Below, one piece after another: positions 6,416 to 59,571 of a stretch of 64,000 bases of DNA (positions are counted from its first letter, which is position 1; every line of letters starts with the position of its first letter). The DNA comes from Flavobacteriaceae bacterium PS02334 (GTDB lineage Bacteria; Bacteroidota; Bacteroidia; Flavobacteriales; Flavobacteriaceae), in NCBI GenBank assembly GCA_029959295.1, contig JASCOH010000005.1, positions 248,001-312,000 of the forward strand, read 5' to 3'. Below the pieces are notes generated by a model. It worked only from the letters and a program-made list of their open reading frames with translations, had not been told where the DNA came from and ran no database searches. The position numbers were made by a program, and so were the translations under genes.

Positions 6416-7405
6416 ATGAAAAAATTACTTCTTCTAGGGGCGTTTTTCGTATCTGCGCCATTTTTTGCACAAGTTGGAATTGGAACCGTGACGCCACATG
6501 ACAAATCGGCTTTAGAAATTGTCTCTTCTGAAAAAGGCTTTCTGATGCCAAGAATGTCAACGGCACAGCGCACTGCAATTTTTCCAACAGCTGATGCAAC
6601 TTCTGCAGGAATGCGAGTGTATGACACTACAACAAAAACTTTTTGGTATTATGATGGAAGCCAGTGGGTTGAAGATGCTAAAAATGCTTCAGAACCATGG
6701 TTTGACGGAACCACAAGTTTAGCAGCAACTGCATCTTCAGATAGTATTTATTTTCCAAAAGGGCTCATGAGTATCGGAACAACGGTTAATGATGCGAAGT
6801 TTCACGCTTCTGCAACAAAAGCTGAAGCCGATGCGAGGAGGGCAATGGTAGGTATTGAGACGCATTGGCAATCTAATAATCCGAATAAGTTTGACTCTTG
6901 GAATGGTTTTGCTTTGATGCCAACGCTTCCAAATCCTTTAAATGGATTTCAGCCCTCTAATGAGCCTTTTATTGGTTATGGACCACAAACTAAAAGTTTC
7001 ACGATCCAGCAATTTATTGACGGCCCTTTTGGAGATATAAAAGAAACGAGAATGGTTTTTATGCCTACTGGCGAAGCTGGAATCGGGTATTCTGCTAGTA
7101 CGCTTTTTGGGGTAACTTATCCAACTTCGCCTAAAGCAGCATTAAGGGTTACTAACGGAACTAAAACTTATGATATCTTGAATCTAGATTATGACAAAAC
7201 AACTGTCGTAAAAGTAGATAGAACAGGTAATGTAGGAATCGGAATTGCAACGCCCCTTAGAAAACTTCATGTCAGTGAAGCAATGCGCCTTCAGCCTCAA
7301 GCTGCAGCACCGGCTTCTGGATCATTAGGTGATTTGTATGTAAACACTGATGGCAAGCTATATTTTCATAATGGAACGGCTTGGAAAGAAGTGAGTCTTC
7401 TGTAA
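6416..7405 (+). CDS. Secreted protein with VGIGT..TP / GFLMPRM repeats
   Basis: This 329-residue protein has a signal peptide ending near FAQ. Directly after it comes VGIGTVTPHDKSALEI followed by GFLMPRMSTAQR, a pattern seen in many large surface proteins of Flavobacteriia. A second VGIGIATPLRKLHV copy lies near the C-terminus, before a short region (GDLYVNTDGKLYF) that resembles phage tail-fibre tips. These suggest a beta-rich, perhaps trimeric, exposed protein. No T9SS sorting domain is seen. The 240-base gap upstream has a weak candidate -7 box (TATTTTTG, 6278-6285). A strong hairpin terminator follows at 7439. No enzymatic role can be inferred. Confidence 0.7.
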   Translation: MKKLLLLGAFFVSAPFFAQVGIGTVTPHDKSALEIVSSEKGFLMPRMSTAQRTAIFPTADATSAGMRVYDTTTKTFWYYDGSQWVEDAKNASEPWFDGTTSLAATASSDSIYFPKGLMSIGTTVNDAKFHASATKAEADARRAMVGIETHWQSNNPNKFDSWNGFALMPTLPNPLNGFQPSNEPFIGYGPQTKSFTIQQFIDGPFGDIKETRMVFMPTGEAGIGYSASTLFGVTYPTSPKAALRVTNGTKTYDILNLDYDKTTVVKVDRTGNVGIGIATPLRKLHVSEAMRLQPQAAAPASGSLGDLYVNTDGKLYFHNGTAWKEVSLL

Positions 7406-7438
7406 TATTGGGTTTTATGTTTTATATATATTTTGAGT

Positions 7439-7465
7439 AAGCTGTCTGAAAAGACAGCTTTTTTT
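7439..7465 (+). terminator. Rho-independent terminator
   Basis: Perfect 9-base stem AAGCTGTCT / AGACAGCTT with a GAAA loop followed by seven T. It lies 33 bases after the stop of the secreted protein gene and abuts the stop of the convergent O-methyltransferase gene. Confidence 0.85.
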
Positions 7466-8105
7466 ATAGTATTCTTGAAACAGTTAATCCGTCGCGAATC
7501 GGCAATAAAACCGTTTCAACCCTAGAATCTTCGTTTACTTTTTTATTATATTCTACCAATACATTCGTGCTCAAATCTTTTGGGTCGGGAGTTTCCAAAA
7601 CTTTTCCGCTCCACAAAACATTGTCAGAAAGAATGATGCCTCCTTTGTTTACCAGAGGAACGATCAAATCAAAATATTTCAGGTAATTGTCTTTGTCCGC
7701 ATCAATAAAAACCAAATCATATTTTTTATTCAAGCCAGGAATTATGTCCAAGGCATCTCCTAAATGCTGTGAAATTTGATTTTTCCAAATTGACAAATCA
7801 AAATATTTTTTTTGGATGTCAAACAATTCTTCGTTGATATCAATAGTGTCAATCGACCCATTTTCTTGCATTCCTTCAGCAAGGCACAAGGTGGCATAGC
7901 CGGTATAAGTTCCGATTTCTAAGATATTCAACGGGCGAATTAATTTAGAAAGCAGGCTTAAAACTCTGCCTTGAAAATGGCCACTCAACATTCGAGGTTG
8001 CATGATCTTTTGAAAAGTCTCTCTGTGCAAAGCTGCTAAAAGTTCAGGCTCATTTTGAGAATGCTTTTCTACATAAAGTTCTAATTCGGGAGAAATGAAA
8101 TGCAT
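7464..8105 (-). CDS. Class I SAM-dependent O-methyltransferase
   Basis: This 213-residue protein belongs to the methyltransf_3 (CCoAOMT/COMT-like) family. The SAM-binding motif ILEIGTYTGYAT and the acidic strand IDTIDINEE are clear. The metal-site strand YDLVFIDADKDNYLKYFD and GGIILSDNVLWSG are also typical. It likely methylates a catechol-like or other small hydroxylated substrate in the cytoplasm. The frame stays open to 8156, but that upstream start falls inside a perfect -7 box on this strand (8154-8161). MHFISPELELYVEKH, starting at 8105, matches the usual family N-terminus. It stands alone, convergent with the upstream gene. Confidence 0.88.
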   Translation of the reverse strand: MHFISPELELYVEKHSQNEPELLAALHRETFQKIMQPRMLSGHFQGRVLSLLSKLIRPLNILEIGTYTGYATLCLAEGMQENGSIDTIDINEELFDIQKKYFDLSIWKNQISQHLGDALDIIPGLNKKYDLVFIDADKDNYLKYFDLIVPLVNKGGIILSDNVLWSGKVLETPDPKDLSTNVLVEYNKKVNEDSRVETVLLPIRDGLTVSRIL

Positions 8106-38730: not shown

Positions 38731-38781
38731 ATAATAGTGGTTTTTTGAAGCGAATCGTCAGGCATTTTCAGGAAAGGCAAT

Positions 38782-38881
38782 TCCCGCTTTCCGGTACAAT
38801 CTTTTTTATTTTTTGTCATCCCGAGCATAGTCGAGGGAATTTTGCTTAAAAATAAAAAAGGATTTTCCCTGCAATCGGGGC
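38782..38881. repeat. CCCGCTTTCCG...CAATCGGGG hairpin element, copy 1
   Basis: The ends read TTCCCGCTTTCCG followed by a CTTTTTTATTTTTT tract, and on the right AAAATAAAAAAGG, TTTCCC and CAATCGGGG. A second element with the same end structure lies at 59384-59517. Inside this copy, at 38815-38840, sits a GTCATCCCGAGCATAGTCG repeat like the one at 31838, so one repeat is nested in another. Together with the terminator and the copy at 38705 this fills the 322-base gap between ftsZ and the GatB/YqeY gene. Confidence 0.65.
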
Positions 38882-38946
38882 TATTAGAAAAACTATTTGG
38901 CTTTCTTTAAACAACAGAACAAGAACGTAAACAGAAACGAAATAAC

Positions 38947-41852: not shown

Positions 41853-43148
41853 ATGGTTAATAGGTTTCGTTTTTTAGCTGCAATAATCTTTTTAGGATGT
41901 TATTGCAAAAGTTTCGCGCAACAGAATTTTATTAATATTGATGCACCATCTTCCACTTGCAAAATCGTTCTGGTTAAAGAATATGAAGAAAAATTTAAGT
42001 ATATAAATCAGGATATTTCGAATAAAAATTCTAAAGAGAGAAAAGCTACTAAAGAGATTTATAGTGAAATTCAAGAAAATTTTCTAGAAAAAATAAATAA
42101 TAGTGATTTTATCTGTAATGATGATCTTGCTAACTATTTAAGGGGATTGATGGATGAAATCTTATTAAAAAATAATATAAAAGGTCAGGATTATAAAATT
42201 TTATTATCAAAAGATTCTGAAGTTAATGCTTATAATACTGGTGATGGAACGATTGTGATAAATTATGGCTTGTTTTTAATTGTAGCAAATGAAAATGAAC
42301 TTGTTTCTGTTATTTCGCATGAAATTGGACATCAGTTTTTAAATCATGTAAAAAAACAAATAGATGCTTTTGTGCAGCTTTCAACATCTGAGGAAATTCT
42401 TGCCAAGACAAAAGAAATTAAGCGCCAGAAATTTGGCAAAGCGACAAAAGCGAACGATTTGATAAGAAATATCCGCTATCAAAATTATGGACAAAGAAGA
42501 AAAAAAGAAATCGAAGCAGATTCAATAGGATTTTCATTTTATAGAAAGACTTTAAGAAATCCGAAATCATTTACTGATATATTGGCAAGGTTAGATAATT
42601 CTGATATTGAAAGTGACTCACTTACTGTAGCTGACTATAAATTTATTTTTGAAAGAAATGGATTTATTATAAAGCAGAAATACTTTGAGGAAGAAAAAAG
42701 CTTATTCTCAAAATATGATAAAGACAAAAGAATAAATTCAGACTCTTTGAAGTCGCATCCGGATTGTGCAACTCGAATTAGAATTATTGAAAAGCAATCG
42801 GTTAAAAGCGATAATGAATTTATAAGAAATTCTAAAATTTTTAATGAAACCAAGCAAAATTGCATCTATCAAAATCTTTATAATCTTTATTCTTCAGAAA
42901 AATACGGACTTTCACTTTATGAGGCATTAAAACTGTATAAAAAGAATACCGATGATTCAGTTTTGAGAAATATAATTTATATGAATTTGGTTAAAATACA
43001 CGAATCTCGTTTAAATTATACGATTACCCGTTATGTTCCCATCCATGATAATTTATATAACTCTACAAGCCTTAATAGGTTTGTCAGTTATTTCAACAAT
43101 ATAAAAATCTCAGACTTCGAAACTATAATTTCAAATTTTAAATCTTAA
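41853..43148 (+). CDS. Secreted M48 family metallopeptidase
   Basis: This 431-residue protein has a signal peptide ending near SFAQ. The zinc site is H156-E-I-G-H160, and the M48 third-ligand motif ExxxD is E219-I-E-A-D223. The segment SEVNAYNTGDGTIVINYGLF just before the active site is typical of the M48 (Ste24/HtpX/BepA) class. It has no membrane segments apart from the signal, so it resembles periplasmic BepA-type peptidases that control outer-membrane protein quality. The C-terminal 200 residues are helical and family-specific. It is 1 base from the next gene and surely co-transcribed with it. Confidence 0.85.
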   Translation: MVNRFRFLAAIIFLGCYCKSFAQQNFINIDAPSSTCKIVLVKEYEEKFKYINQDISNKNSKERKATKEIYSEIQENFLEKINNSDFICNDDLANYLRGLMDEILLKNNIKGQDYKILLSKDSEVNAYNTGDGTIVINYGLFLIVANENELVSVISHEIGHQFLNHVKKQIDAFVQLSTSEEILAKTKEIKRQKFGKATKANDLIRNIRYQNYGQRRKKEIEADSIGFSFYRKTLRNPKSFTDILARLDNSDIESDSLTVADYKFIFERNGFIIKQKYFEEEKSLFSKYDKDKRINSDSLKSHPDCATRIRIIEKQSVKSDNEFIRNSKIFNETKQNCIYQNLYNLYSSEKYGLSLYEALKLYKKNTDDSVLRNIIYMNLVKIHESRLNYTITRYVPIHDNLYNSTSLNRFVSYFNNIKISDFETIISNFKS

Positions 43149-43149
43149 T

Positions 43150-44667
43150 ATGAAAAACACTTATTTATTGCTGATTTCTTTTTTTCTGTGTTCAATAATG
43201 CATGGGCAAATCGTAGATTTAAAAAAATTCTCCAAAGGAAAATTTTATTGGTCTGATCAGATTAAAGATGAAAATAACAATATAAAAGGATATTTAGTTT
43301 TGTATGAAAGCGACAAAATGGCTAAAGAAACCTATCAGCTTGAATATGTCGTACTTGACGAAAATTTGACAAAAGTCACAAATGGATTTATAAATGAGAT
43401 GAAATTTGAATCATGGTTAATGAAGTCAGAGAAAATTTCGGTTAACGTTTCAGTTTACAAAGACAATTTGCTTCTTAGATTAGCTGATTCTTATGAAGGA
43501 GAAGAGTTTTTCAAGCGTTATAGACTTTTGTCAATTAAGGATAATAAAATTAGCGAGCCATTTATTTATAACAAAGGTAAAATGATTTTAGATCCTGTTA
43601 TTGATCGAAAGCTTTCGAATATTTCAGATAATCATTCTGAAGATATGTTCTTTTTTGATGAAGTAGGTTTGGTCGTAAATTCAACGATGTTGGATAAAAG
43701 CGAGAATCTTACAAAGAGCTATCTAGCGCATTTTGATGAGAATATGAAGGAAGTTTGGCGATTTGAATATGGGGATATTTCTGATAAAAGAATAAAAGAT
43801 CTCCATTATTTGAAATCTGACAAAGATGTTATTGTGCTTTTTAACCATGCTTTTAAAAACAAAACAATGGTTGATAATGTCAATGAAGTTTCTGCTTTGT
43901 TTTTAGATTCAAAGAGCGGAGCTTTGCGTAAAGAATTTGCATTTCCAGATTTAGATAAATTTAGCTATAGAGTTGTAGATTGCAATATCACTACAGATAA
44001 AATTTATTTGGCTGGAAATTACTCAAAGTCTGATAAGACAGGTTTTATTGATGATGATGATAATACAGGGCTTTTTAATTTTGTTTTCAATAAAGCTACT
44101 GGAGAATTAATCAAGAGTACTTATTTTAATTGGGAATCGCTTCTTCCTAAATTAGATATCAATAAAAAAGGTTATGTGAAAAAAGAAGGTAACTTATTTA
44201 TTCATGAAATGTTGTTTACCAGCACTGGAAAATTGATAGTTGCAGCAGAGGCCTTTACTCAGTCTCCAATTACTACAAATAATATGTACTTTCTAGAATT
44301 TAATGATAAATTTGAGATCGAGCAATTGTTTGAAGTTCAAAAATTTAGAAATAAATTCCCAAAGACAATTGGACATTCAAGTCAGATAAAAAAATCTGGA
44401 CTATTTGATTTTATAGATTATCAAAGCCTTGGTGACGATGAATACCTTTTCTTTGTTAATGATAATGAGAAGAATTCTGTTAACGGAGATAAAAGGACAT
44501 TATTTGGAATAATTTCTTATTCAGATGGCAAATTTAAAAGACAGACGCTGGAACTTAAAGAGTCTGACAATACAAAAAATATTTATAATGCGAAAAAAGG
44601 ATATCTTATGATTTTTGAAAGTAGTGGCAAATCAAAAGAACTTCGTTTAGAAAAAATAAATTATTAG
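43150..44667 (+). CDS. Secreted protein of unknown function, partner of the M48 peptidase
   Basis: This 505-residue protein has a signal peptide ending near MHGQ. The rest alternates short strands with charged turns and repeated segments of the form (Y/F)LAGNYSKSDKTG and LDSKSGALRKEF, suggestive of a beta-propeller-like fold; this fold is inference. No catalytic motif is recognised. It begins one base after the M48 peptidase stop, so the two are probably made together and may form a chaperone/protease or substrate pair in the periplasm. Codon use matches its neighbour. Confidence 0.6.
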   Translation: MKNTYLLLISFFLCSIMHGQIVDLKKFSKGKFYWSDQIKDENNNIKGYLVLYESDKMAKETYQLEYVVLDENLTKVTNGFINEMKFESWLMKSEKISVNVSVYKDNLLLRLADSYEGEEFFKRYRLLSIKDNKISEPFIYNKGKMILDPVIDRKLSNISDNHSEDMFFFDEVGLVVNSTMLDKSENLTKSYLAHFDENMKEVWRFEYGDISDKRIKDLHYLKSDKDVIVLFNHAFKNKTMVDNVNEVSALFLDSKSGALRKEFAFPDLDKFSYRVVDCNITTDKIYLAGNYSKSDKTGFIDDDDNTGLFNFVFNKATGELIKSTYFNWESLLPKLDINKKGYVKKEGNLFIHEMLFTSTGKLIVAAEAFTQSPITTNNMYFLEFNDKFEIEQLFEVQKFRNKFPKTIGHSSQIKKSGLFDFIDYQSLGDDEYLFFVNDNEKNSVNGDKRTLFGIISYSDGKFKRQTLELKESDNTKNIYNAKKGYLMIFESSGKSKELRLEKINY

Positions 44668-44686
44668 CCAGAGAATAAGATTGATA

Positions 44687-44721
44687 CAAAAAAACAAAAC
44701 TCCGGTAATCAGCCGGAGTTT
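44687..44721 (-). terminator. Rho-independent terminator downstream of rpoD
   Basis: 9-base stem AAACTCCGG / CCGGAGTTT with a 7-base loop. On the minus strand it is followed by a T-rich tract. It lies about 130 bases past the rpoD stop; it could also slow plus-strand transcripts but lacks a T run on that side. Confidence 0.65.
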
Positions 44722-44852
44722 CAATCATCAATCAAAAAACGAACAGTTTACACTGTTGTTGCGTTAAATATTGTGTATGTGTTTAGTTTCTGAAGCCAAA
44801 TTACAAATAAATTTTTACAAACAAAATGGATTTCAGAAAACATTACAAATGA

Positions 44853-45716
44853 TTATCCTAAATATGTTTTTAAGATCTTGCTTCTTGAAGTATGTTTCAA
44901 TCTGCGGATCGCTTTTTCTTTGATCTGGCGAACACGTTCACGAGTCAAGTCAAAAGTTTCACCGATTTCTTCCAAAGTCATTGGATGTTGGTCGCCCAAG
45001 CCAAAATACAAACGAACTACGTCAGCTTCTCTTGGCGTCAAAGTTTCCAAAGAACGCTCAATTTCTGTACGCAAAGACTCGTGGATCAATTCTCTGTCTG
45101 GGTTTGGAGATTCTCCTGAACGCAACACGTCATAAAGATTTGAATCTTCTCCTTCTACAAGAGGCGCATCCATTGAAAGGTGACGGCCAGAATTTTTCAT
45201 AGATTCTTTTACGTCATTCACAGTCATGTCAAGTTCTTTTGCAATTTCTTCAGCAGATGGCGGACGCTCGTTTGATTGCTCAAGCAAAGCATACATCTTG
45301 TTGATTTTATTGATAGAACCAATTTTGTTCAATGGCAAACGAACAATACGAGATTGTTCAGCCAGAGCCTGCAAGATAGATTGACGAATCCACCAAACGG
45401 CATAAGAGATGAATTTAAAACCACGCGTTTCATCAAAACGTTGTGCGGCTTTTATAAGACCTAAATTTCCTTCATTAATTAAATCGGGAAGTGTAAGTCC
45501 TTGATTTTGATATTGTTTTGCTACGGAAACCACGAAACGAAGATTGGCTTTTGTCAATTTCTCCAACGCTCTCTGGTCTCCAGCCTTAATCTTTTGTGCC
45601 AATTCTACCTCTTCATCAGCGGTAATTAAGTCAACTTTTCCAATTTCTTGTAGGTATTTGTCTAAAGAAGCAGTTTCACGATTCGTTACCTGCTTGGTAA
45701 TTTTGAGTTGTCTCAT
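44853..45716 (-). CDS. rpoD: Primary sigma factor RpoD/SigA (short Bacteroidota form)
   Basis: This 287-residue protein contains regions 1.2 to 4.2. Region 2 includes [35 protein letters not shown] and the -10 recognition helix; region 3 follows; region 4 contains [12 protein letters not shown], then [19 protein letters not shown]. There is no region 1.1, and length and sequence match the housekeeping sigma of Bacteroidota, which recognises TAnnTTTG promoters like those found throughout this window. Its own promoter is not obvious. Confidence 0.95.
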
Positions 45717-45816
45717 CTAGGTTTTCCTTAAATTTTAAGTATTCAGATTGTTATACGTAATGAACGCTAAAAAAGTTACAAAAGTTTAGAAAAAATCTTC
45801 ATTTGTTTCAAATTAT

Positions 45817-46773
45817 TTACAATTCATAGTCTAACTTGTTGATTTTCTGTATGTAAAAATCTATTTTTTGATGCCCTTTATTGAAAAATAATTTTCGATC
45901 TCTAGTTCCAGAAAGGTTTAATGACTTAGAATTCTTGATTTGATGGATAAAATACTCTGAAGCATTGTTGCAAGTAGAAATATCTTCTGTAATAAAATAT
46001 CCGAGCATAGTATAAGGTATAAACAACGATTTCTTTTCAGAATTAGACATCAGAACATTATTGTTCAAAATCAAAAGCTCATTGTAATATAAATGATAGT
46101 TAGAAGAATTCTTGCTTGACTTCTCTTCCGCTTTAAGTAATAATTTTTTCAAATCTTCATAAAGCAAAGTAGCATTTTGATGCGACAACAAACCCGATTC
46201 AAAGAAATATAAAATCTGTTGCAAAGTACTGTTTATCGTAGTATCATTCCAGATTTCATGCACTTCAGAATTATCATAAACACTTTGCAATTGTGAACTA
46301 TATTCCAAAAGCGATTGGTCTAAAGTAAATTTTTCGAAACTTTCCTGGTTTTCGCTTCCAATCAAAAGATTCAGCCAGACATATAATTTGAATTTGGAAA
46401 GCAGAGTTCCTCCAATAGTATAAAAAAGCGGAATGTCTTTAGCAGAATAATACATTTTCGAATTCATGCCATAAGGTTTTAAATTCGAAGCAGATTGCCT
46501 GAAATACGTAGCCAAGTCTCCTAAAGAATGAATTTCTTTGGTCTTTTCTGCAATGACTTGATTTTCTTTTCCGCCAAACATTTTATCCATAGAAATAGAA
46601 AAATGCTGGCAAAGTTTCACAGTTTCCTCAATTGAAAATTTGCTTTTTGACGAAACTCTCCGGTGGGAAGCGTCATAACTTATCTGCAAAACAGAAGCAA
46701 TTTCTTCAATTAAAGAAGAATTCTTGCTTAAATGCTTCCTGATATTACCTAGTAAAATCGTTTGGTTGCCCAT
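45817..46773 (-). CDS. Putative HTH regulator divergent from the HMG-CoA reductase operon
   Basis: This protein is about 318 residues. The N-terminal about 65 residues (LIEEIASVLQISYDASHRRV, then FSIEETVKLCQHFSISMDKMF) look like a Cro/C1-type helix-turn-helix. The rest is mostly helical and unassigned, possibly a ligand-binding or dimerisation part. The frame opens at a GTG (46791), but that codon lies in the minus-strand -7 box, so the ATG at 46773 is preferred. Its promoter lies only about 50 bases from that of the divergent isoprenoid/phospholipid operon, so control of that operon is likely. The family resembles unnamed Bacteroidota regulators; binding site and ligand are unknown. Confidence 0.6.
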   Translation of the reverse strand: MGNQTILLGNIRKHLSKNSSLIEEIASVLQISYDASHRRVSSKSKFSIEETVKLCQHFSISMDKMFGGKENQVIAEKTKEIHSLGDLATYFRQSASNLKPYGMNSKMYYSAKDIPLFYTIGGTLLSKFKLYVWLNLLIGSENQESFEKFTLDQSLLEYSSQLQSVYDNSEVHEIWNDTTINSTLQQILYFFESGLLSHQNATLLYEDLKKLLLKAEEKSSKNSSNYHLYYNELLILNNNVLMSNSEKKSLFIPYTMLGYFITEDISTCNNASEYFIHQIKNSKSLNLSGTRDRKLFFNKGHQKIDFYIQKINKLDYEL

Positions 46774-46790
46774 AATTTTTGCGATTATCA

Positions 46791-46798
46791 CAAATATA
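46791..46798 (-). promoter_or_regulatory. -7 box TATATTTG of the putative regulator
   Basis: Perfect TAnnTTTG on the minus strand, predicting a start near 46785 and a short leader. It overlaps the alternative GTG start, which argues against that start. Confidence 0.55.
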
Positions 46799-46845
46799 GG
46801 ATTTTAAATTATTATTTAGAGCAATTCAATATGTGTTAATCACAA

Positions 46846-46853
46846 TAAGTTTG
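46846..46853 (+). promoter_or_regulatory. -7 box TAAGTTTG of the HMG-CoA reductase operon
   Basis: Perfect TAnnTTTG on the plus strand with a predicted start near 46859, just ahead of the small ORF at 46878. It makes a divergent promoter pair with the box at 46791-46798. Confidence 0.55.
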
Positions 46854-46877
46854 GCTTGTAATTATAAATCAATCGCA

Positions 46878-47009
46878 ATGAAAATGATAATTGCAAAAAT
46901 GTATTTCTATCTCTATAAAAAAGCGATCGAAAGAGACAAGCCCGAAACGGCAAGATGGAAAATTATTAAAGAAGTGGCCATAAATCTAATTAGATATTAT
47001 AAAAAGTAA
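46878..47009 (+). CDS. Small protein (43 residues) leading the HMG-CoA reductase operon
   Basis: An ATG-to-TAA frame of 43 codons begins MKMIIAKMYFYLYKKAIERD and continues with KPETARWKIIKEVAINLIR to YYKK. It lies downstream of a perfect -7 box and ends 6 bases before the HMG-CoA reductase ATG, the spacing expected of an operon gene. The product is basic, aromatic and probably helical (amphipathic), perhaps a membrane-associated peptide. No known family is recognised; it could instead be a leader peptide whose translation controls the operon. Confidence 0.5.
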   Translation: MKMIIAKMYFYLYKKAIERDKPETARWKIIKEVAINLIRYYKK

Positions 47010-47015
47010 ACTATC

Positions 47016-48191
47016 ATGAAAACAATATCAGAGAATAAACAGACAAGATTTTCAATAGATTCAAGCAATTCAACAGATGGAATTAAAAATAGGAGAGAGG
47101 CAATTGCTGGCGAATGCAGTTATTTATTCCAAGAAAAAATATTTGATTCTCCAGAAATCCTGAAAGGAAATATCGAGAATTACATCGGAATGTCAATGAT
47201 CCCGACAGGAATTATTGGTCCTGTAAAAGTAAATGGCAATTCGGCGAAAGGAGAATTTATAGTTCCGTTAGCAACTTCAGAAGGCGCTTTAGTTGCTTCT
47301 TACAATCGCGGCGCAAAAGCCTGCCATGAAGCTGGCGGCGTTACGTCAATTTGCTTGGAAGAAGGCGTTCAAAGAAGTCCAGTTTTTAAATTTGAAAATA
47401 TTAATAACTTAAGTATATTTTTAAATTGGGTCTTAAATCAGGAAACTATTTTCAAGCAGATTATCAATGACAGCAGTCGATTCGCACAATTAAAAGAAAT
47501 GAAAGTTAATGTGGAAGGAAATCATCTGACTTTAACTTTTGATTATTCTACAGCCGATGCTTCCGGTCAAAATATGGTAACTTTTTGTACGGAAAACATT
47601 TGCAATTATATTATAAAAAATGCTCCGATCCAACCCAAATTATGGTTTATCGAAGGAAATTTTTCAGGCGATAAAAAAGCAACTTCGCTTTCATTTTCGC
47701 AGGTCAGAGGTAAAAAAGTAACTGCAGAAATAGTCTTGCCAAAAGAAATCGTAGAAAAAACATTGCTAACGACTCCAGCGGCAATGTTCAATTATTGGCT
47801 GAGTTCCACAATAGGTGTGATTCAAAGCGGCGCAATCGGCGCTCAAGGGCATTATGCCAATGGTTTGGCTGCAATTTTTATCGCCACGGGTCAAGACGTT
47901 GCCTGTGTTTCTGAAGCTTCTGTCGGAATTACACGGATGGAAATCACAGAAAACGGATCGCTTTACGCCGCAATTACGTTGCCTAATTTAATTGTAGGAA
48001 CCGTCGGTGGCGGAACTTCATTGCCAACTCAAAAAGAATGCTTGCAAATAATGGATTGCTACGGTGAAGGAAAAGCCAAAAAATTTGCTGAGATAATCGG
48101 AGCTGTTTTATTGGCAGGAGAACTATCAATTGCAGCCGCTATTTCTGCTGGACATTTTACAAGCGCGCATAAAAAATTTGGAAGAAAATAA
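47016..48191 (+). CDS. Class I hydroxymethylglutaryl-CoA reductase
   Basis: This 391-residue enzyme reduces HMG-CoA to mevalonate. Residues match the human class I enzyme: catalytic E89 in PLATSEGALVAS, K220 in GDKKATS, D293 in ATGQDVACVSE, and H385 in GHFTSAH. The substrate loop ENYIGMSMIPTGIIGP and the cofactor region DASGQNMVT and GTVGGGTSLPTQ are present. It is catalytic-domain only and soluble. Flavobacteria use the mevalonate pathway, but here the gene is grouped with lipid head-group and isoprenoid-kinase-like genes and a divergent regulator, not other mevalonate genes. Confidence 0.9.
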   Translation: MKTISENKQTRFSIDSSNSTDGIKNRREAIAGECSYLFQEKIFDSPEILKGNIENYIGMSMIPTGIIGPVKVNGNSAKGEFIVPLATSEGALVASYNRGAKACHEAGGVTSICLEEGVQRSPVFKFENINNLSIFLNWVLNQETIFKQIINDSSRFAQLKEMKVNVEGNHLTLTFDYSTADASGQNMVTFCTENICNYIIKNAPIQPKLWFIEGNFSGDKKATSLSFSQVRGKKVTAEIVLPKEIVEKTLLTTPAAMFNYWLSSTIGVIQSGAIGAQGHYANGLAAIFIATGQDVACVSEASVGITRMEITENGSLYAAITLPNLIVGTVGGGTSLPTQKECLQIMDCYGEGKAKKFAEIIGAVLLAGELSIAAAISAGHFTSAHKKFGRK

Positions 48192-48207
48192 CTTAAAAAA
48201 GTAGCTT

Positions 48208-48795
48208 ATGAAAACTCAAGAAAATATTTTAAATGTGCCTAATCTCTTGTCATTCTATAGATTGTTGGCGATTCCATTTATTGTTTGGAGTCTGTTTGAA
48301 GAAAACAAAACGCTTTTTATCGCTTTGATTTGTATTAATTTAATCACCGATATTTTGGATGGATTAATCGCCAGAACTTTCAATTTGTGTACAGAATTTG
48401 GCGCAAGATTAGATTCCTTAGCAGATATTAGCACTTTTTTATTGTCAATTTCTGGCTTTTGGGTTTTTGAGAAACTCTTTGTGCTAGAACATCAATTTGC
48501 CTTCGTCACGCTTTTTAGTTTTTATGCTATTCCGCAATTGGTTTCGTTGCTTAAATTTAAGCGACCGACTAGTTTTCATCTGTATTCAAATAAAATTGTA
48601 GGTTATATTCAAGGCATTTTTATCTTCACTTTTTTCGTCTTCGGATACAATGAATTCTACTTTTATTTCATGGTTGTTGCTAGTTGTTTGGGCGATTTTG
48701 AAGTGTTTTTATTGGTTCTTTTATTGCCGAAAATCATTTCAAATGCCAAAAGTATTTTCTCTGTCTTAAAAAGAAAGCAAAATGGGACTTTATAA
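48208..48795 (+). CDS. CDP-alcohol phosphatidyltransferase family protein
   Basis: This 195-residue protein has about six membrane segments. The family signature DG..AR..G..D..D is complete: D-I-L-D-G-L-I-A-R at about residues 48-56, followed by GARLDSLAD. It joins a CDP-linked lipid to an alcohol such as glycerol phosphate, serine or inositol phosphate, releasing CMP. The specific alcohol cannot be deduced. It lies 16 bases after the reductase and overlaps the next gene by 14 bases, so it is translated with it. Confidence 0.85.
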   Translation: MKTQENILNVPNLLSFYRLLAIPFIVWSLFEENKTLFIALICINLITDILDGLIARTFNLCTEFGARLDSLADISTFLLSISGFWVFEKLFVLEHQFAFVTLFSFYAIPQLVSLLKFKRPTSFHLYSNKIVGYIQGIFIFTFFVFGYNEFYFYFMVVASCLGDFEVFLLVLLLPKIISNAKSIFSVLKRKQNGTL

Positions 48796-50137
48796 TATTT
48801 TAGCGATTTTCTTCCTGATTGGAGGAATCGGAATCTTTTTGATAAATAAAAAATCAAAGGCAGTTTTGGCCAATAAAAACCGATGGAAAAAGTATTTAGT
48901 TTACCTTTTTTTGGTTTTCGGACAATTGTTTTTAATCCAAAATAAAGGGTACAATTGGTTTATGATATTGATTTTGCTGTTTGGTTTCTATGAAATAATT
49001 AAGATTGGAAAAATAAAGAAATCTGCAATTCTGAGCCTTCTTCTCTATTCCTTTTTCGGATGGTTTTTCTTTTCTTTTTTTACTTCTGAAGCTTTGATTT
49101 GGCAGCAGTTTTTATTTGTGATTGTAATTTCATTCGACGGATATTCGCAACTTTTCGGACAGCTTTTCGGGAAAACGAAATTATTTCCAAAAATTAGCCC
49201 GAATAAAACTTTAGAAGGATTGTTAGGTGGAATAACTTCAGTCATAATAACTGCAATAATTTTAAGCAATTCTTTAAAAATTGAAATTTATAAAGGTCTA
49301 GTTTTTGGCTTGGCAATTGCAATTTTGGCTATAATTGGTGATTTTTTAGCTTCATTTTACAAAAGAATAAACAACGCAAAAGATTACAGCCAATTAATTC
49401 CAAATCATGGCGGATTTCTAGATCGCTTCGACAGCCTCATTTTTGCCGGATTTGGAGCTACCTTTTTGCTGAAGATTGATTTTTCAAATCCTGTAGTTTT
49501 GATCTTTGCAATTTACATTTTGCTGTTTCTGCTGCTTTTCTTGACTTCGGAAATAATCCATCATTCCTTAGAATTTAAGGCCGAAATAAGTCGAAAATTC
49601 GTGCATTTCACCTCTGGAGTTATTTGCCTGTCTTTTCCTTTCTACATAAATAATCATTGGATAGTCTTGGCTCTTTGTGCAGGATTTCTATTGCTGTTGT
49701 TTGGAAGTCAAAAGTTTAAAGTGTTAAAGTCAATAAATAACATACCTAGAAAATCGTATGGAAGTTTGCTGTTTCCAATTTCTGTGTATTGCTGTTTTTT
49801 AAATTTCCAATATCACAATGATGAAAAAATCTATTTCTATTTGCCTATTTTGATTTTAGCAATTTGCGATCCTTTAGCCTCGTTAATCGGGAAAAAATAT
49901 CCTTTTTGGAAATATAAAAACGGGAACGATTATAAAACAATTATGGGCTCGTCAGTTTTTTTTGTTGCGAGTTTTTTAATAGTATTTGCTACTTTCTACT
50001 TTAACGGAATTATTTTTCCAGAATTATTTCTAAAGAGTTTTTTTATCTCAACAATTGCAACTTTAGCTGAGGCATTTAGCAAAAAAGGGACAGATAATTT
50101 ATTTATTCCGCTGGCTGTCATTATATTGCTGAATTGA
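48782..50137 (+). CDS. Fusion of CdsA-like cytidylyltransferase and dolichol/phytol kinase-like domain
   Basis: This 451-residue membrane protein has two parts. Residues about 1-250 match phosphatidate cytidylyltransferase (CdsA): SPNKTLEGLLGG and the signature FYKRINNAKDYSQLIPNHGG followed by FLDRFDS, which activates a lipid phosphate with CTP. From about residue 262 it resembles the CTP-dependent dolichol/phytol kinase and DGK1 family: EISRKFVHFTSG, CDPLASLIGKK, KTIMGS and GTDNLFIPLAV. Two CTP-using lipid enzymes are thus joined, plausibly phosphorylating and then activating the same isoprenoid or acyl lipid. It is the last gene of the operon and converges on the DUF4421 gene 4 bases away. 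Confidence 0.8.
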   Translation: MGLYNILAIFFLIGGIGIFLINKKSKAVLANKNRWKKYLVYLFLVFGQLFLIQNKGYNWFMILILLFGFYEIIKIGKIKKSAILSLLLYSFFGWFFFSFFTSEALIWQQFLFVIVISFDGYSQLFGQLFGKTKLFPKISPNKTLEGLLGGITSVIITAIILSNSLKIEIYKGLVFGLAIAILAIIGDFLASFYKRINNAKDYSQLIPNHGGFLDRFDSLIFAGFGATFLLKIDFSNPVVLIFAIYILLFLLLFLTSEIIHHSLEFKAEISRKFVHFTSGVICLSFPFYINNHWIVLALCAGFLLLLFGSQKFKVLKSINNIPRKSYGSLLFPISVYCCFLNFQYHNDEKIYFYLPILILAICDPLASLIGKKYPFWKYKNGNDYKTIMGSSVFFVASFLIVFATFYFNGIIFPELFLKSFFISTIATLAEAFSKKGTDNLFIPLAVIILLN

Positions 50138-50141
50138 TGTG

Positions 50142-51215
50142 CTAATTTTTCTTCTTTATTTTTGATCCCATCCATTCAAAGCTTCTTTCAATAGGCTTTG
50201 GAGCTTTAAAACGGTAGCCGATAAAAGCCATGACATAAGTTTGTTCTCCAGAAGGCTTAATATCGGCGGTCGGACTTGTATATCGGTTAACACTGGCATA
50301 AGCGCCTCCAAACCAGCTTCGGGAATTATATCCGAGAGAAAATTCGCCATATCCTGAAATGGTCATTTCTGTATTCTTTTCAGAAGATTTTCCTGCCGGA
50401 AACTCCAATCGGGTAGATTGTGCGCCAATTGTCGGATAAACAAAGGCTGTGGCATAGAATTTTTTCAGAAAAATATAATTGTAGGCATATCCCGCGCCGG
50501 CAACCGCATAATAGGTCTGGTTGCGAAAAGGATAAATCAAGTTTTGGTCGATATTTGACTGCAGAAATGGAAATTGCTGTTTGCTTCCGTCAATATCTGA
50601 ATAATATAATCCCAAAACGGCAACAACTGATCCAGCACTTTTCAATTGGATTTCGCTTTGAGTGCGTGCAAATTGCGATGAAAATTTCTCTCCGTTGAAA
50701 TAATAATAACTTACTAATCCGGCTTCAACAGATTTGAAGTCGGGCAGCAACGCATATTTCCCAAAAATGCCACTTTCAGACAATTCCGTTCGGTATTCAT
50801 TTGAATTCGAGAGGTAATAGCCTTCGGTTTTTTTGTAAAAAATATGCTGCTGAAGTTTGTTGAAACTTAAATTTAGGCCAAGGCCAAAAACAGTCGACTT
50901 GCCTTTTAGTGCTTCGTCGTCATTCAGTCCGCCAATTTTTGGAGAAAAACTGTAGGCAAGATTGAGCCATTTATATCCCAAAGAAATACGTGCCTGATAA
51001 CTTTCATTGGGCAAGACATTGAAATCTTTGACAGGAGCACGGTTATTGAATTTAAATTCGGTAATATCGGTATTGGCGTCAAACCTGACCTGAATGTAAT
51101 TTTCCATCGATTCTTTATAGGAATCAGATATGGAATCTTGAAGTAAAACGGTAGCTTCTTGCGCTTGGGCATAGAACCCAATAAGGATCACGGCTGATAA
51201 AATAGTTATTTTCAT
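50142..51215 (-). CDS. DUF4421-like outer-membrane protein
   Basis: This 357-residue protein has a signal peptide ending near AQAQ. The body is beta-strand rich with LGYKWLNLAYSFSPKIGG, GLGLNLSFNKLQQH and GYYLSN, consistent with a DUF4421 outer-membrane barrel of Bacteroidota. It ends MAFIGYRFKAPKPIERSFEW plus a short basic tail. It is probably an outer-membrane structural or transport protein of unknown substrate. A perfect -7 box lies just upstream. It is convergent with the CdsA/kinase fusion gene. Confidence 0.65.
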   Translation of the reverse strand: MKITILSAVILIGFYAQAQEATVLLQDSISDSYKESMENYIQVRFDANTDITEFKFNNRAPVKDFNVLPNESYQARISLGYKWLNLAYSFSPKIGGLNDDEALKGKSTVFGLGLNLSFNKLQQHIFYKKTEGYYLSNSNEYRTELSESGIFGKYALLPDFKSVEAGLVSYYYFNGEKFSSQFARTQSEIQLKSAGSVVAVLGLYYSDIDGSKQQFPFLQSNIDQNLIYPFRNQTYYAVAGAGYAYNYIFLKKFYATAFVYPTIGAQSTRLEFPAGKSSEKNTEMTISGYGEFSLGYNSRSWFGGAYASVNRYTSPTADIKPSGEQTYVMAFIGYRFKAPKPIERSFEWMGSKIKKKN

Positions 51216-51337: not shown

Positions 51338-53518
51338 TTATTTTCTGTCGTCGCGTCTTTCTGGACGAGGCGCTCTTTCTTCTCTTGGAGCATTTTCATC
51401 TCTTGGAGGTCTTGGCAATAAAGCTTTTCTTGAAACTTTTTCTTTTCTTGTTTTTGGGTCTAATCCAAGGTATTTCACTTGGAAAACATCGCCCATATTT
51501 ACAACATCAGTTACGTTTTCAGTTCTTTCCCAAGCCAATTCAGATACGTGCAATAAAACCTCGTTTCCGGGAGCTTCTGTGTATTCTACAACCGCGCCAA
51601 AATCCAACATCTTGATTACTTTCACTTCATAAGCTTCTCCCATTTGTGGTTTGAAGATGATAGAATCGATTTTTGCCAATACAGCTGCGATTCCGTCAGG
51701 ATCAGTTCCAAGGATTTCAACAACACCTTGCTCGTCAACTTCATTGATAACGATTGTTGTTCCTGTAGCTTTTTGCAATTCTTGAATTACTTTTCCTCCA
51801 GGTCCGATCAATGCACCAATGAAAGCACCAGGAATGGTACGCATGATGATTTTTGGAGCGTGAACTTTAACGTCAGTTCTAGGCTGTTCTAATGTTTCCA
51901 TCAATTTTCCTAAGATATGCAAACGTCCATCACGAGCTTGAGCCAATGCCTGCTCCATGATTTCATATTTCAATCCGTCGATTTTGATGTCCATTTGGCA
52001 AGCCGTAATTCCTTCAGAAGTTCCAGTTACTTTGAAATCCATATCTCCCAAGTGATCTTCATCACCCAAGATATCAGATAAAACTGCAAAACGATCTCCG
52101 TCAGTAATCAATCCCATCGCGATTCCAGAAACCGGGCGAATCATTTGAATACCGGCATCCATCAAAGCCAATGTTCCAGCACAAACTGTTGCCATTGAAG
52201 ACGAACCGTTAGATTCTAAAACTTCAGAAACAACTCTAATTGTGTATGGATTTTCAGCAGGAATCATGTTTTTCAAGGCTCTTTGTGCCAAGTTTCCGTG
52301 ACCCACTTCTCTTCTTGAAGTTCCTCTTAACGGACGAGCTTCTCCTGTTGAAAATGGAGGGAAATTATAGTGCAAATAGAATTTTTCTTCTCCTTGCTCA
52401 GATGGTGAATCAATTTGGTTGGCTTCTCTAGAAGTTCCTAAAGTTGCCGTTGCCAAAGCTTGCGTTTCTCCACGTGTAAACAATGCAGAACCGTGAACTG
52501 AAGGCAAATAATCTACTTCAGACCAAATTGGACGAATTTCAGTAGTTTTTCTTCCGTCAAGACGAGTTCCTAAATCTAAAGTTACATTACGAACGGCTTC
52601 TTTGTTTGTTTTGTAGAAATATTTAGAAACTAAATCTCCGTTTTCCAACAATTCTTCGTCTGTAAATAATGCTTTTACTTCTTCTTTTACAGCATCAAAA
52701 GCAGCAGAACGTTCGTGTTTTGCAGAACCTTTGCTTGCAATAGCGTAAATTTTATCATAAGCCGCTTCTTTTACTTTTGCGTAAATAGCGTCATCCGATT
52801 TTTCTTTTTCATAGGTACGAACTTCTTTTTTTCCAAAAGCAGCAGCCAATCTTTCTTGAGCTGCGATTTGTACTTTAATATGTTCGTGCGCAAATTTAAT
52901 GGCTTCCACCATTTCTGCTTCTGAAATTTCTTTCATTTCACCTTCTACCATCGCGATAGAATCGGTTGAAGCTCCAATCATCATGTCAATATCAGACAAT
53001 TCTAATTGTGCGCGAGATGGGTTGATGATGAATTTTCCATCAATTCTTCCAACTCTAGCTTCAGAAATCAATGTTTCAAAAGGAATGTCAGACAATGCAA
53101 GTGCTGCCGAAGCGGCCAAACCTGCCAAAGCATCTGGCATAACTTCTTCATCATGAGACATTAATTGAATCATAACTTGAACTTCTGCATGGTAATCTGA
53201 TGGGAAAAGCGGACGCAAAACACGGTCAACTAATCTCATTGTTAATACTTCGCTGTCGCTTGGACGTGCTTCTCTTTTGAAGAAACCACCAGGAAAACGA
53301 CCTGCTGCAGCAAATTTTTCACGATAATCTACCGTTAAAGGTAAAAAGTCGATACCTGGACTTGCTTTTCTTGCGGAAACAACTGTACCTAAAATTACAG
53401 TTTTTCCAATTCTTACTACTACAGAACCGTCAGCTTGTTTTGCTAAACGACCTGTCTCGATTGTGATGCTTCTGCCATCACCTAAATCGATGCTTTCTAC
53501 AAATAATTGTGGAATCAT
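51338..53518 (-). CDS. pnp: Polyribonucleotide nucleotidyltransferase (PNPase)
   Basis: This 726-residue 3'-5' phosphorolytic exoribonuclease has two RNase PH domains (residues about 1-215 and 300-530), the all-alpha domain between them, a KH domain ([21 protein letters not shown], about 555-620) and an S1 RNA-binding domain (about 620-690). The Arg/Pro-rich tail ([20 protein letters not shown]) is typical of Bacteroidota. It is a cytoplasmic RNA-degradation enzyme. It lies downstream of rpsO, a classic arrangement, with a terminator between them. Confidence 0.95.
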
Positions 53519-53671: not shown

Positions 53672-53941
53672 TTATTTTCTAATATTCAATTCTTTGATAA
53701 TCTCACGGTATCTGTTGATATCTTTCTTTTTAAGATAATCAAGCAAACTTCTTCTTTTACCTACCAAAAGTACAAGCGAACGCTCAGTGTTATAATCGTG
53801 ACGATTTTTTTTCAAGTGCTCTGTCAAGTGGCTGATTCTGAATGTGAACAATGCGATTTGACCTTCTGCTGAACCAGTGTTTTCAGCTTTTCCTCCGTGT
53901 TTAGCGAAAATTTCCGCTTTAACTTCATTAGTTAAGTACAT
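53672..53941 (-). CDS. rpsO: 30S ribosomal protein S15
   Basis: This 89-residue protein binds 16S rRNA in the platform of the small subunit. The S15 signature is clear: GSAEGQIALFTFRISHLTEHLKKNRHDYNTERSLVLLVGKRR then LLDYLKKKDINRYREII (given in parts). Length is normal for the family. A perfect -7 box lies 54 bases upstream. In many bacteria S15 autoregulates through its leader; no such RNA fold was identified here. Confidence 0.97.
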   Translation of the reverse strand: MYLTNEVKAEIFAKHGGKAENTGSAEGQIALFTFRISHLTEHLKKNRHDYNTERSLVLLVGKRRSLLDYLKKKDINRYREIIKELNIRK

Positions 53942-53994
53942 GCAAATATTATTTAATGATTTTTATGTATGAATAAGTTTTTCCTATTCGAGTG

Positions 53995-54002
53995 CAAAGG
54001 TA
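53995..54002 (-). promoter_or_regulatory. -7 box TACCTTTG of rpsO
   Basis: Perfect TAnnTTTG on the minus strand, predicted start near 53989, giving a leader of about 48 bases before the rpsO ATG. Confidence 0.6.
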
Positions 54003-59291: not shown

Positions 59292-59383
59292 ATTAATAAT
59301 CAGCATTTTGCAGGTTTTTTATGACTGCAAGCCAACAACGATTATTAATACATCTGGCTTTTTGTTCCTAATTATTTGGGCCT

Positions 59384-59517
59384 AATCCCGCTTTCCGTTC
59401 CAAGCTTTTTATTTTAAAAACTTTTTTCTAAGTTCCGCCACTAGCTTCCGCTGGTCGCTGTGGCATCATAAGAAAAAATGTTCTTAAAATAAAAAGGCTT
59501 TCCACTATAATCGGGGG
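59384..59517. repeat. CCCGCTTTCCG...AATCGGGG hairpin element, copy 2
   Basis: The left end reads AATCCCGCTTTCCG followed by GCTTTTTATTTTAA. The right end reads TTAAAATAAAAAGGCTTTCC and then AATCGGGG, so the tracts form inverted repeats. Between them lies a further hairpin (GCCACTAGC...GCTGTGGC). The end structure matches the element at 38782-38881, marking a dispersed family. It occupies most of the gap between the small membrane protein and dabA. Confidence 0.65.
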
Positions 59518-59571
59518 CAGGGCATCCCTTCTTTGAACAAAATTTCAGGTTTTAACAGCCATGAAATAGTA

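Follow-up and report, generated by a model that had tools for sequence, protein, structure and literature searches.

An operon of HMG-CoA reductase and lipid-activation genes in Flavobacteriaceae bacterium PS02334, a candidate membrane-lipid pathway

A 64,000-nucleotide stretch of the genome of Flavobacteriaceae bacterium PS02334 (assembly GCA_029959295.1, contig JASCOH010000005.1, positions 248,001 to 312,000; here called the window) carries a gene for HMG-CoA reductase (HMGR) followed by genes for a CDP-alcohol phosphatidyltransferase (CDPOH) and for a fusion of a CdsA-type cytidylyltransferase with a kinase-like domain (KIN). What is an HMGR doing among genes for lipid activation, in a genome that most likely makes its isoprenoids with another HMGR? 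The grouping of HMGR with lipid genes recurs and is not due to chance. We tentatively read it as a self-contained pathway, gained by acquisition, to a special membrane lipid, in which the alcohol produced by HMGR would itself be a building block. Genomes and loci are referred to by G and L numbers; the window genome is G000 (4.59 Mb, completeness 100).

The operon and its enzymes

The operon comprises three forward-strand genes at 47016-50137 in the list of open reading frames (ORFs), facing a divergent helix-turn-helix (HTH) gene:

47016-48191, + strand: HMGR, 391 aa, a class I HMG-CoA reductase that lacks a membrane domain (ORF, Pfam, PDB, alignment, tree; catalytic residues intact)
48208-48795, + strand: CDPOH, CDP-alcohol phosphatidyltransferase, 195 aa (ORF, Pfam; full catalytic motif)
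48782-50137, + strand: CdsA-KIN fusion, CdsA-type cytidylyltransferase plus CTP-dependent lipid kinase-like domain, 451 aa (ORF, Pfam)
48782-49516, + strand: CdsA-type half of the fusion, residues 1-245 (Pfam; signature KR....KDYS..IP.HGG.LDRFD; PDB 4q2g)
49517-50137, + strand: kinase-like half (KIN), residues 246-451 (conserved residues; AlphaFold2 model)
46792-47015, no strand: divergent intergenic region, 224 bp, with a Bacteroidota-like -7 element TAAGTTTG at 46846 (+)
45817-46791, - strand: HTH-type regulator gene, 324 aa, with a BetR-like N-terminal HTH and a C-terminal part of about 250 aa (ORF, Pfam, PDB profile)

The HMGR and CDPOH genes are 16 bp apart and the CDPOH and CdsA-KIN frames overlap by 14 bp, so the three genes are likely one transcription unit. 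With these ORFs and the Pfam scores below, the grouping stands as it was described in a first prediction made from the DNA letters alone (the original prediction), which also correctly named the first gene as a class I HMGR with all catalytic residues. The protein matches PF00368 (HMG-CoA_red) with 382.7 bits (cut-off 27) and carries E89, K220, D294 and H385, whose roles we take from the human numbering. Class I is favoured over class II by 325.9 bits with TIGR00533 vs 54.9 with TIGR00532, the former score lying below the cut-off (441.8) of TIGR00533 as an equivalog of HMG-CoA reductase (NADPH). The closest PDB entry is 6hr7 (283.8 bits), which we take to be an archaeal HMGR. Across a 72-row alignment no HMGR that reaches those columns has lost any of the four catalytic residues; one solitary Flavobacterium row stops short of the histidine. 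The HMGRs of L048 and L065 have Q in place of a histidine aligned with H279 of the window protein. Two candidate peculiarities were rejected: an altered substrate pocket, with glutamate for the serine before GN..GDKK (presumably human S684), since glutamate stands there in 20 of 21 ordinary Bacteroidota class I HMGRs (alanine in L109), and an altered cofactor motif, DASGQNM, as a mark of the cluster, since it also occurs outside it, e.g., in two Vibrio plasmid copies.

CDPOH scores 78.9 bits with CDP-OH_P_transf (PF01066, cut-off 22), and the motif DG..AR........G...D...D is complete in it and in all five aligned sequences, which places it in this family. The known head-group types compared were PgsA, PssA, ClsA, PIP synthase and archaeal types, and the ten NCBIfam head-group models that matched were all below cut-off, the best being ClsA (48.8 of 240). 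The CdsA half scores 134.9 bits with CTP_transf_1 (PF01148, cut-off 24) over residues 34-231 only, shows the signature KD....IP.HGG.LDRFD, as do all four aligned sequences, and matches PDB 4q2g (91.6 bits with a profile); it belongs to the CdsA family.

The kinase half has no curated Pfam match of its own, CTP_transf_1 being found weakly in 5 of 14 KIN members and not in the window copy, and no sequence relative of KIN was found in the PDB. In other loci it has stand-alone counterparts, some 220-260 aa long, with which it aligns, with the conserved residues RK..H, D..A...G and KT..GS. An AlphaFold2 model of residues 236-451 is confident and helical (pLDDT 93.2), and a remote similarity to the CdsA half was detected (hhalign probability 18.5%, E 0.0013). 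We read this half as a predicted CTP-dependent lipid kinase, which we take to be of the Sec59/VTE5/Dgk1 type (COG0170), a name that no tool assigned.

Recurrence of the gene unit and the larger cluster

The original prediction proposed to look for co-occurrence across genomes, and for HMGR and KIN this was found. In a sample of 395 Bacteroidota genomes, with profile scores above 430 bits for HMGR and above 120 bits for KIN, 9 have the HMGR subfamily, 10 have KIN and 8 have both. In eight of the nine HMGR-subfamily genomes the two genes lie on one contig, 1.3-4.9 kb apart (Fisher p 2.9e-14, a value that flatters, since the thresholds were set after the scores had been seen and the KIN profile itself derives from cluster loci; the short distances are independent of that). 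The HMGR subfamily occurs without KIN in G083, and KIN without it in G412 and G396; KIN-type matches at any score are found in 227 of the 395. Among 60 relatives of the window organism, KIN is present in G000 and G039, and a weak match occurs in G049 (with G049 counted, Fisher p 0.005 for co-occurrence with HMGR). The HMGR and KIN distances correlate over 18 loci (r = 0.90; 0 of 2000 permutations as high), a figure obtained without a control gene and to which shared species history may contribute. CDPOH is too general a family for such a count: 390 of the 395 genomes match, the window's own copy with 315.2 bits and the next with 139.5.

Of the 40 loci that a contig scan with three HMGRs gave, 15 are from Bacteroidota and have one or more further cluster genes; the remainder have none, 20 being from Flavobacterium (L039, L041-L052, L054-L056, L058, L059, L064, L065) and 5 proteobacterial. 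Contigs end less than 1 kb past HMGR in four of the 20 Flavobacterium loci (L046, L051, L054, L059) and in the proteobacterial L062. Three of the partnerless Flavobacterium loci are in the LHD-85 genome, and in L058 the HMGR gene is split across two frames. KIN is present in 12 of the 15 partner-bearing loci, the exceptions being L034 and L036 (both at a contig end) and L037 (HMGR-UbiA only), and CDPOH in four. L035 (same record as L025; G039, Flavobacteriales) has the order HMGR-KIN-CDPOH-CdsA, all as separate genes. L030 reads HMGR-KIN-CarS-like-CDPOH, its contig ending in CDPOH; the CarS-like protein (36.8 bits, cut-off 22) stands at the place of CdsA, and this exchange, with kinase and transferase retained, argues for three successive steps. 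In L029 and L031, HMGR-CDPOH-CdsA is followed by genes for UbiA, a PEP-synthase-like protein (PEPS), DUF3419, KIN, a GNAT-type protein and an AMP ligase, KIN lying 4.6-4.7 kb past CdsA. The claim of one joint unit fares well where the modules recur as separate genes (G039) and HMGR and KIN are co-located (8 of 9), and poorly in the 20 partnerless Flavobacterium loci.

The window set overlaps a larger Bacteroidota cluster of seven genes, HMGR-UbiA-PEPS-DUF3419-KIN-GNAT-AMP ligase, of which the window has only HMGR and KIN, plus the CDPOH and CdsA that are also found in L029 and L031. All seven are present in eight of the 40 loci (L028, L029, L031, L032, L033, L038, L053 in permuted order, and L057) and in 7 of 11 further stretches that were picked for HMGR or KIN matches (L129, L130, L131, L133-L136). 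They also occur, ordered as in L028, on a plasmid of the alphaproteobacterium Roseinatronobacter, whose record begins within the HMGR frame. L027 has six genes (AMP ligase absent) and L040 ends after the GNAT-type gene. Coordinates of the seven-gene cluster are:

L028: 9860-19617
L029: 9911-20408
L197: 29-8507

In L028 the scores are 38.6 bits for UbiA (cut-off 34.2), 190.8 for PPDK_N, 80.9 for PEP-utilizers, 225.9 for DUF3419 and 142.0 for AMP-binding. The GNAT-type protein of L028 has no family match, and Acetyltransf_1 is matched by 7 of 12 aligned copies. The models nearest to PEPS are the PEP synthase PRK06241.2 and then the prodigiosin ligase PigC, all under cut-off. The cluster UbiA keeps the acidic residues of the first motif and has E..RK in all 12 aligned sequences at the second, in the place of the canonical aspartate motif. 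L132 (G412) carries PEPS-DUF3419-KIN-UbiA-GNAT without HMGR, and a NAD_binding_4 thioester/fatty acyl reductase (170.4 bits) adjoins PEPS; with no HMGR found, this reductase fits a role of turning a thioester into an alcohol.

Several further contexts were observed. A phosphatidylserine decarboxylase gene (6630-7532) lies downstream in L132 (6630-15534). On an Alteromonas macleodii plasmid (L201, 121-9151) HMGR is near an AMP-binding gene, a gene annotated as thermostable hemolysin, an iron-containing redox enzyme gene and a TonB siderophore receptor gene. On a Sinorhizobium meliloti plasmid (L200, 1-9640) it lies within an acyl-CoA/biotin carboxylase group, which hints at HMG-CoA from leucine-like degradation. 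Within about 1.5 kb on each side of CDPOH relatives outside the cluster (L141-L147) no HMGR or KIN was recognised; in L146 a CdsA-type gene adjoins CDPOH.

In a tree of 66 HMGR rows, the cluster HMGRs and the solitary Flavobacterium HMGRs form one side (40 rows, support 100/100), the other side (26 rows) holding other Bacteroidota class I HMGRs and proteobacterial HMGRs. The window HMGR has a long branch (0.58) and groups with those of L027, L028, L029, L030 and L031 (97/90), and the solitary Flavobacterium HMGRs are a separate lineage (100/98 with L034). The window HMGR is placed apart from that lineage, so a derivation of the window gene from the solitary HMGRs sampled is unsupported by this tree.

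The neighbouring genes are:

44853-45716, - strand: rpoD, named by eye
50142-51215, - strand: DUF4421 gene, convergent to the operon at a distance of 4 bp
51338-53518, - strand: pnp, named by eye

In the window the interval between rpoD and pnp is 5.6 kb and holds the HTH gene, the operon and the DUF4421 gene; in G017 (L196) the site is empty, rpoD and pnp being only 163 bp apart. GC content showed no clear shift across the operon, so the case for acquisition is made by distribution, tree and empty site and not by composition. Elsewhere in the window there are Flavo-1 RNA matches at 38776-38886 (-, 71.7 bits) and 59380-59522 (-, 56.9 bits; cut-off 42) and an S15-Flavobacteria leader at 53939-54002 (-).

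The original prediction gave the operon its own divergent regulator. A divergent HTH gene is indeed present, its start codon at 46791 marking the beginning of the predicted range and its body lying outside it. The protein matches BetR (PF08667) weakly (17.3 bits, cut-off 21.6), as do five homologues (17.1, 18, 15.5, 21.2 and 22.7 bits, only the last exceeding the cut-off); it has a profile match to PDB chain 3op9 (E 0.0087) and an AlphaFold2 model with a mean pLDDT of 83.0. The promoter motif TTG-N17..23-TAnnTTTG, which we take to be that of Bacteroidota, has no full match on either strand of the 224 bp intergenic region. Homologues occur in 7 of the 60 genomes including its own, at eight places, of which seven, the window included, were inspected for neighbours. 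The gene is divergent to a CDPOH-containing unit at three of the seven (G000; G004, 39.1 bits; G040, 57.4 bits) and to a fatty-acid desaturase gene at one (G015, 105.5 bits); the divergent partners are genes without Pfam match in G024 and an M20 peptidase gene in G042, and in G049 the neighbour is not divergent. L193 and L194, with a CDPOH-divergent HTH gene, had been chosen for their CDPOH matches and are excluded from this count. A 64%-identical regulator sits between rpoD and pnp in G024, without HMGR, and in G004 and G015 the regulator is 1.3-1.6 kb from pnp. Among the HMGR loci then collected no HTH homologue was found except the window's own (blastp, 1e-4). The family seems to be partly linked to lipid genes, to which it is sometimes divergent, and the window protein may control the operon; the regulator is not a fixed member of the gene set, and the prediction of an own regulator is half borne out.

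Isoprenoid supply in the hosts and a possible lipid pathway

The original prediction took HMGR as the isoprenoid entry to the proposed lipid, and this part is not supported. The window genome has a second HMGR (G000:C66:205334-206347) of class II type (308.2 bits with TIGR00532, a model named 'degradative' by NCBI; cut-off 259.95), adjoining a GHMP kinase of the GYDIA family (440.1 bits, cut-off 225). Other neighbourhoods may carry an HMG-CoA reductase and a GHMP kinase, according to PMC12419801. HMG-CoA synthase and mevalonate-diphosphate decarboxylase are also present, and DXR has no match in the genome, making the operon HMGR surplus; the mevalonate route, using the other HMGR, is the most likely source of isoprenoids. 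No other mevalonate-pathway gene was recognised among the seven genes scanned at 41853-51215. The window HMGR finds matches in 23 of the 60 genomes, strong ones only in G000, G039 and G004 (59-100% identity); the other 20 (22-29% identity) are presumably class II.

The methylerythritol phosphate route is encoded by most Bacteroidota, and some genera have the mevalonate route alone (PMC13001223). DXR and the decarboxylase were searched in 22 genomes, of which 19 count as hosts of related clusters; left out are G083 (solitary HMGR; decarboxylase, no DXR), G412 (no HMGR) and G461 (Aquisalinus, solitary HMGR), the latter two with DXR and no decarboxylase. In 11 of the 19, DXR was found without a detected decarboxylase (G074, G334, G326, G264 and G314, with completeness 94-99; G452, Dyadobacter psychrotolerans; G455; and G456, G457, G459 and G460, which are metagenome-assembled). 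Mevalonate would not reach isopentenyl diphosphate classically in these hosts, and their HMGR probably does not feed it. Four have the decarboxylase and no DXR match (G000, G215, G122, G451), two have both (G453, G454) and two have neither (G039, 76% complete, and G458). The mevalonate kinase model TIGR00549 was discarded as a marker, matching 19 of the 22 genomes, none above cut-off, and 13 of 14 controls including E. coli. In G453 (C7:58537-61326) and G454 (C6:10602-13391), both also with DXR, two matches to the mevalonate kinase model lie in a 966-aa frame with a decarboxylase match between them in the same register, the latter's own frame being given as 351 aa; a fusion and dual isoprenoid pathways are possible.

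Taken together, the surplus HMGR, the hosts with DXR alone and the repeated association with lipid genes speak for a direct entry of the HMGR product into a lipid. From the gene set, catalytic residues, recurrence, co-location and second HMGR, all of which can be read in the sequences, we infer substrates, an order of steps and a product as follows. HMGR would make mevalonate, or reduce a similar CoA thioester to an alcohol, which would go straight into a lipid with no conversion to isopentenyl diphosphate. The kinase half would phosphorylate a lipid alcohol, e.g., diacylglycerol, at the expense of CTP; the CdsA half would turn the lipid phosphate into a CDP-lipid; and CDPOH would couple this to an acceptor alcohol, most simply mevalonate. 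That final transfer to mevalonate is a guess that fits the enzymes. It is doubtful, though conceivable, that bacteria, several of them lacking a detected route from mevalonate to isopentenyl diphosphate, maintain a dedicated HMGR to put mevalonate itself into a membrane lipid and that this lipid would be a new class. The window operon would then represent its simplest form, of the CDP-alcohol kind, and its elaborate form would be the seven-gene cluster, found across Bacteroidota and on a plasmid of an alphaproteobacterium.

Several points weigh against direct use of the HMGR product in a lipid. An isoprenoid use stays open in the window organism, which can use mevalonate in this way, and G000, G215, G122 and G451 could all put mevalonate into isoprenoids. 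The DXR-only argument comes from hosts of the larger cluster, that of L030 being outside it, and the CDPOH-bearing hosts differ: in the window genome the decarboxylase is present and DXR has no match, both are present in the hosts of L029 and L031, and neither is in G039. The decarboxylase was the sole usable marker of the lower pathway, and decarboxylase-independent routes could remain. HMG-CoA synthase (PF08540) is matched in only 3 of the 22 genomes, but the model also misses G215, G122, G453 and G454, all of which have the decarboxylase, so its absence counts for little. Half of the 40 HMGR loci, all Flavobacterium, lack partners, and the kinase assignment is based on motifs rather than a curated model. 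No paper on a mevalonate lipid ('phosphatidylmevalon' and similar terms) was found in the open-licence full texts searched.

Three other explanations were weighed. In the first, HMGR would supply mevalonate and isopentenyl diphosphate, and an isoprenoid alcohol would be phosphorylated, CDP-activated and given a head group in an archaeal-like manner. The CarS-like protein of L030, a member of the CDP-archaeol synthase family, the UbiA-type protein of the larger cluster, the decarboxylase of the window genome and five more of the 19 hosts, and a presumed resemblance of KIN to polyprenol and phytol kinases agree with it. This explanation is nevertheless unlikely given the 11 DXR-only hosts and the E..RK of the cluster UbiA at the expected second aspartate motif; moreover, the ORF list and Pfam revealed no prenyl synthase, geranylgeranylglyceryl phosphate (GGGP) synthase or UbiA in the window operon. 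GGGP and DGGGP synthases, of the archaeal-type ether-lipid route, were unrecognised near the operon, no genome-wide search being made.

Two unrelated activities might instead share a transcript, a spare HMGR raising mevalonate and a salvage route of diacylglycerol kinase, CdsA and CDP-alcohol transferase leading to ordinary phospholipid. Each recognised enzyme belongs to a common family, HMGR is often partnerless in Flavobacterium, and the next CDPOH relatives (139.5 bits or less) are in contexts without HMGR or KIN. We consider this quite unlikely, as the pairing of HMGR with KIN persists in different families and on a plasmid of an alphaproteobacterium, including in hosts without evident isoprenoid use of mevalonate. 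Activation of mevalonate or anhydromevalonate to become the acyl part of an amide or ester, as in fusarinine siderophores, with the lipid genes anchoring or modifying the product, is improbable: HMGR, AMP ligase and GNAT-type protein do stand together in the larger cluster, and the Alteromonas plasmid HMGR has an AMP-binding gene and a gene for a TonB siderophore receptor in its vicinity, but no AMP ligase or GNAT is encoded by the window operon (ORF list and Pfam), and no hydratase or non-ribosomal peptide synthetase (NRPS) was recognised by eye in the cluster loci, most of whose proteins were unscanned.

Returning to direct use of the HMGR product in a lipid, the lipid-gene context and the many DXR hosts make a bacterial use of mevalonate other than for isopentenyl diphosphate directly testable. 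If correct, a lipid containing mevalonate would add a new component to membranes, and the enzyme family targeted by statins would have a second role in bacteria. Class I HMGRs without a matching isoprenoid pathway were reportedly noticed in marine bacteria by Gophna in 2006, with no function given. Some bacteria have class I HMGRs according to PMC13370337, which assayed an F. psychrophilum HMGR taken from its own bacterial tree. In keeping with the original prediction that no bacterial pathway with this gene set has been described, the open-licence full texts searched (subscription papers lay outside) gave no recognisable description of HMGR with KIN or of the seven-gene cluster; papers on UbiA-297/ebo and lipocone concern other gene sets.

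Comparison with known systems

In fungi, fusarinine siderophores are made with HMGR, the AMP ligase SidI and the GNAT protein SidF. The larger cluster combines the same three kinds of enzyme, yet with lipid enzymes in place of a recognised NRPS or hydratase, and the window operon is without AMP ligase and GNAT. BtaA, a DUF3419 protein, functions in betaine-lipid synthesis, and the larger cluster likewise carries a DUF3419 protein; unlike that system, the window operon is without DUF3419, and to our knowledge HMGR, UbiA and PEP-synthase-like proteins have no part in betaine-lipid synthesis.

The window HMGR resembles the class I HMGRs of the mevalonate pathway (PDB 6hr7, eukaryotic enzymes) in family and in catalytic E, K, D and H. 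It differs in scoring below the TIGR00533 cut-off, in having no recognised mevalonate-pathway neighbour and in that many of its relatives' hosts are without a detected decarboxylase. The match of the CdsA half to 4q2g and the family motif of CDPOH recall phospholipid synthesis by way of CDP-diacylglycerol (CdsA, PgsA/PssA), whereas CDPOH falls under the cut-offs of all ten head-group models that it matches and the CdsA half shares its chain with a kinase-like domain. KIN, in turn, carries conserved residues like those of Sec59/VTE5/Dgk1-type kinases; unlike them it reaches no curated model, and it is genetically tied to HMGR.

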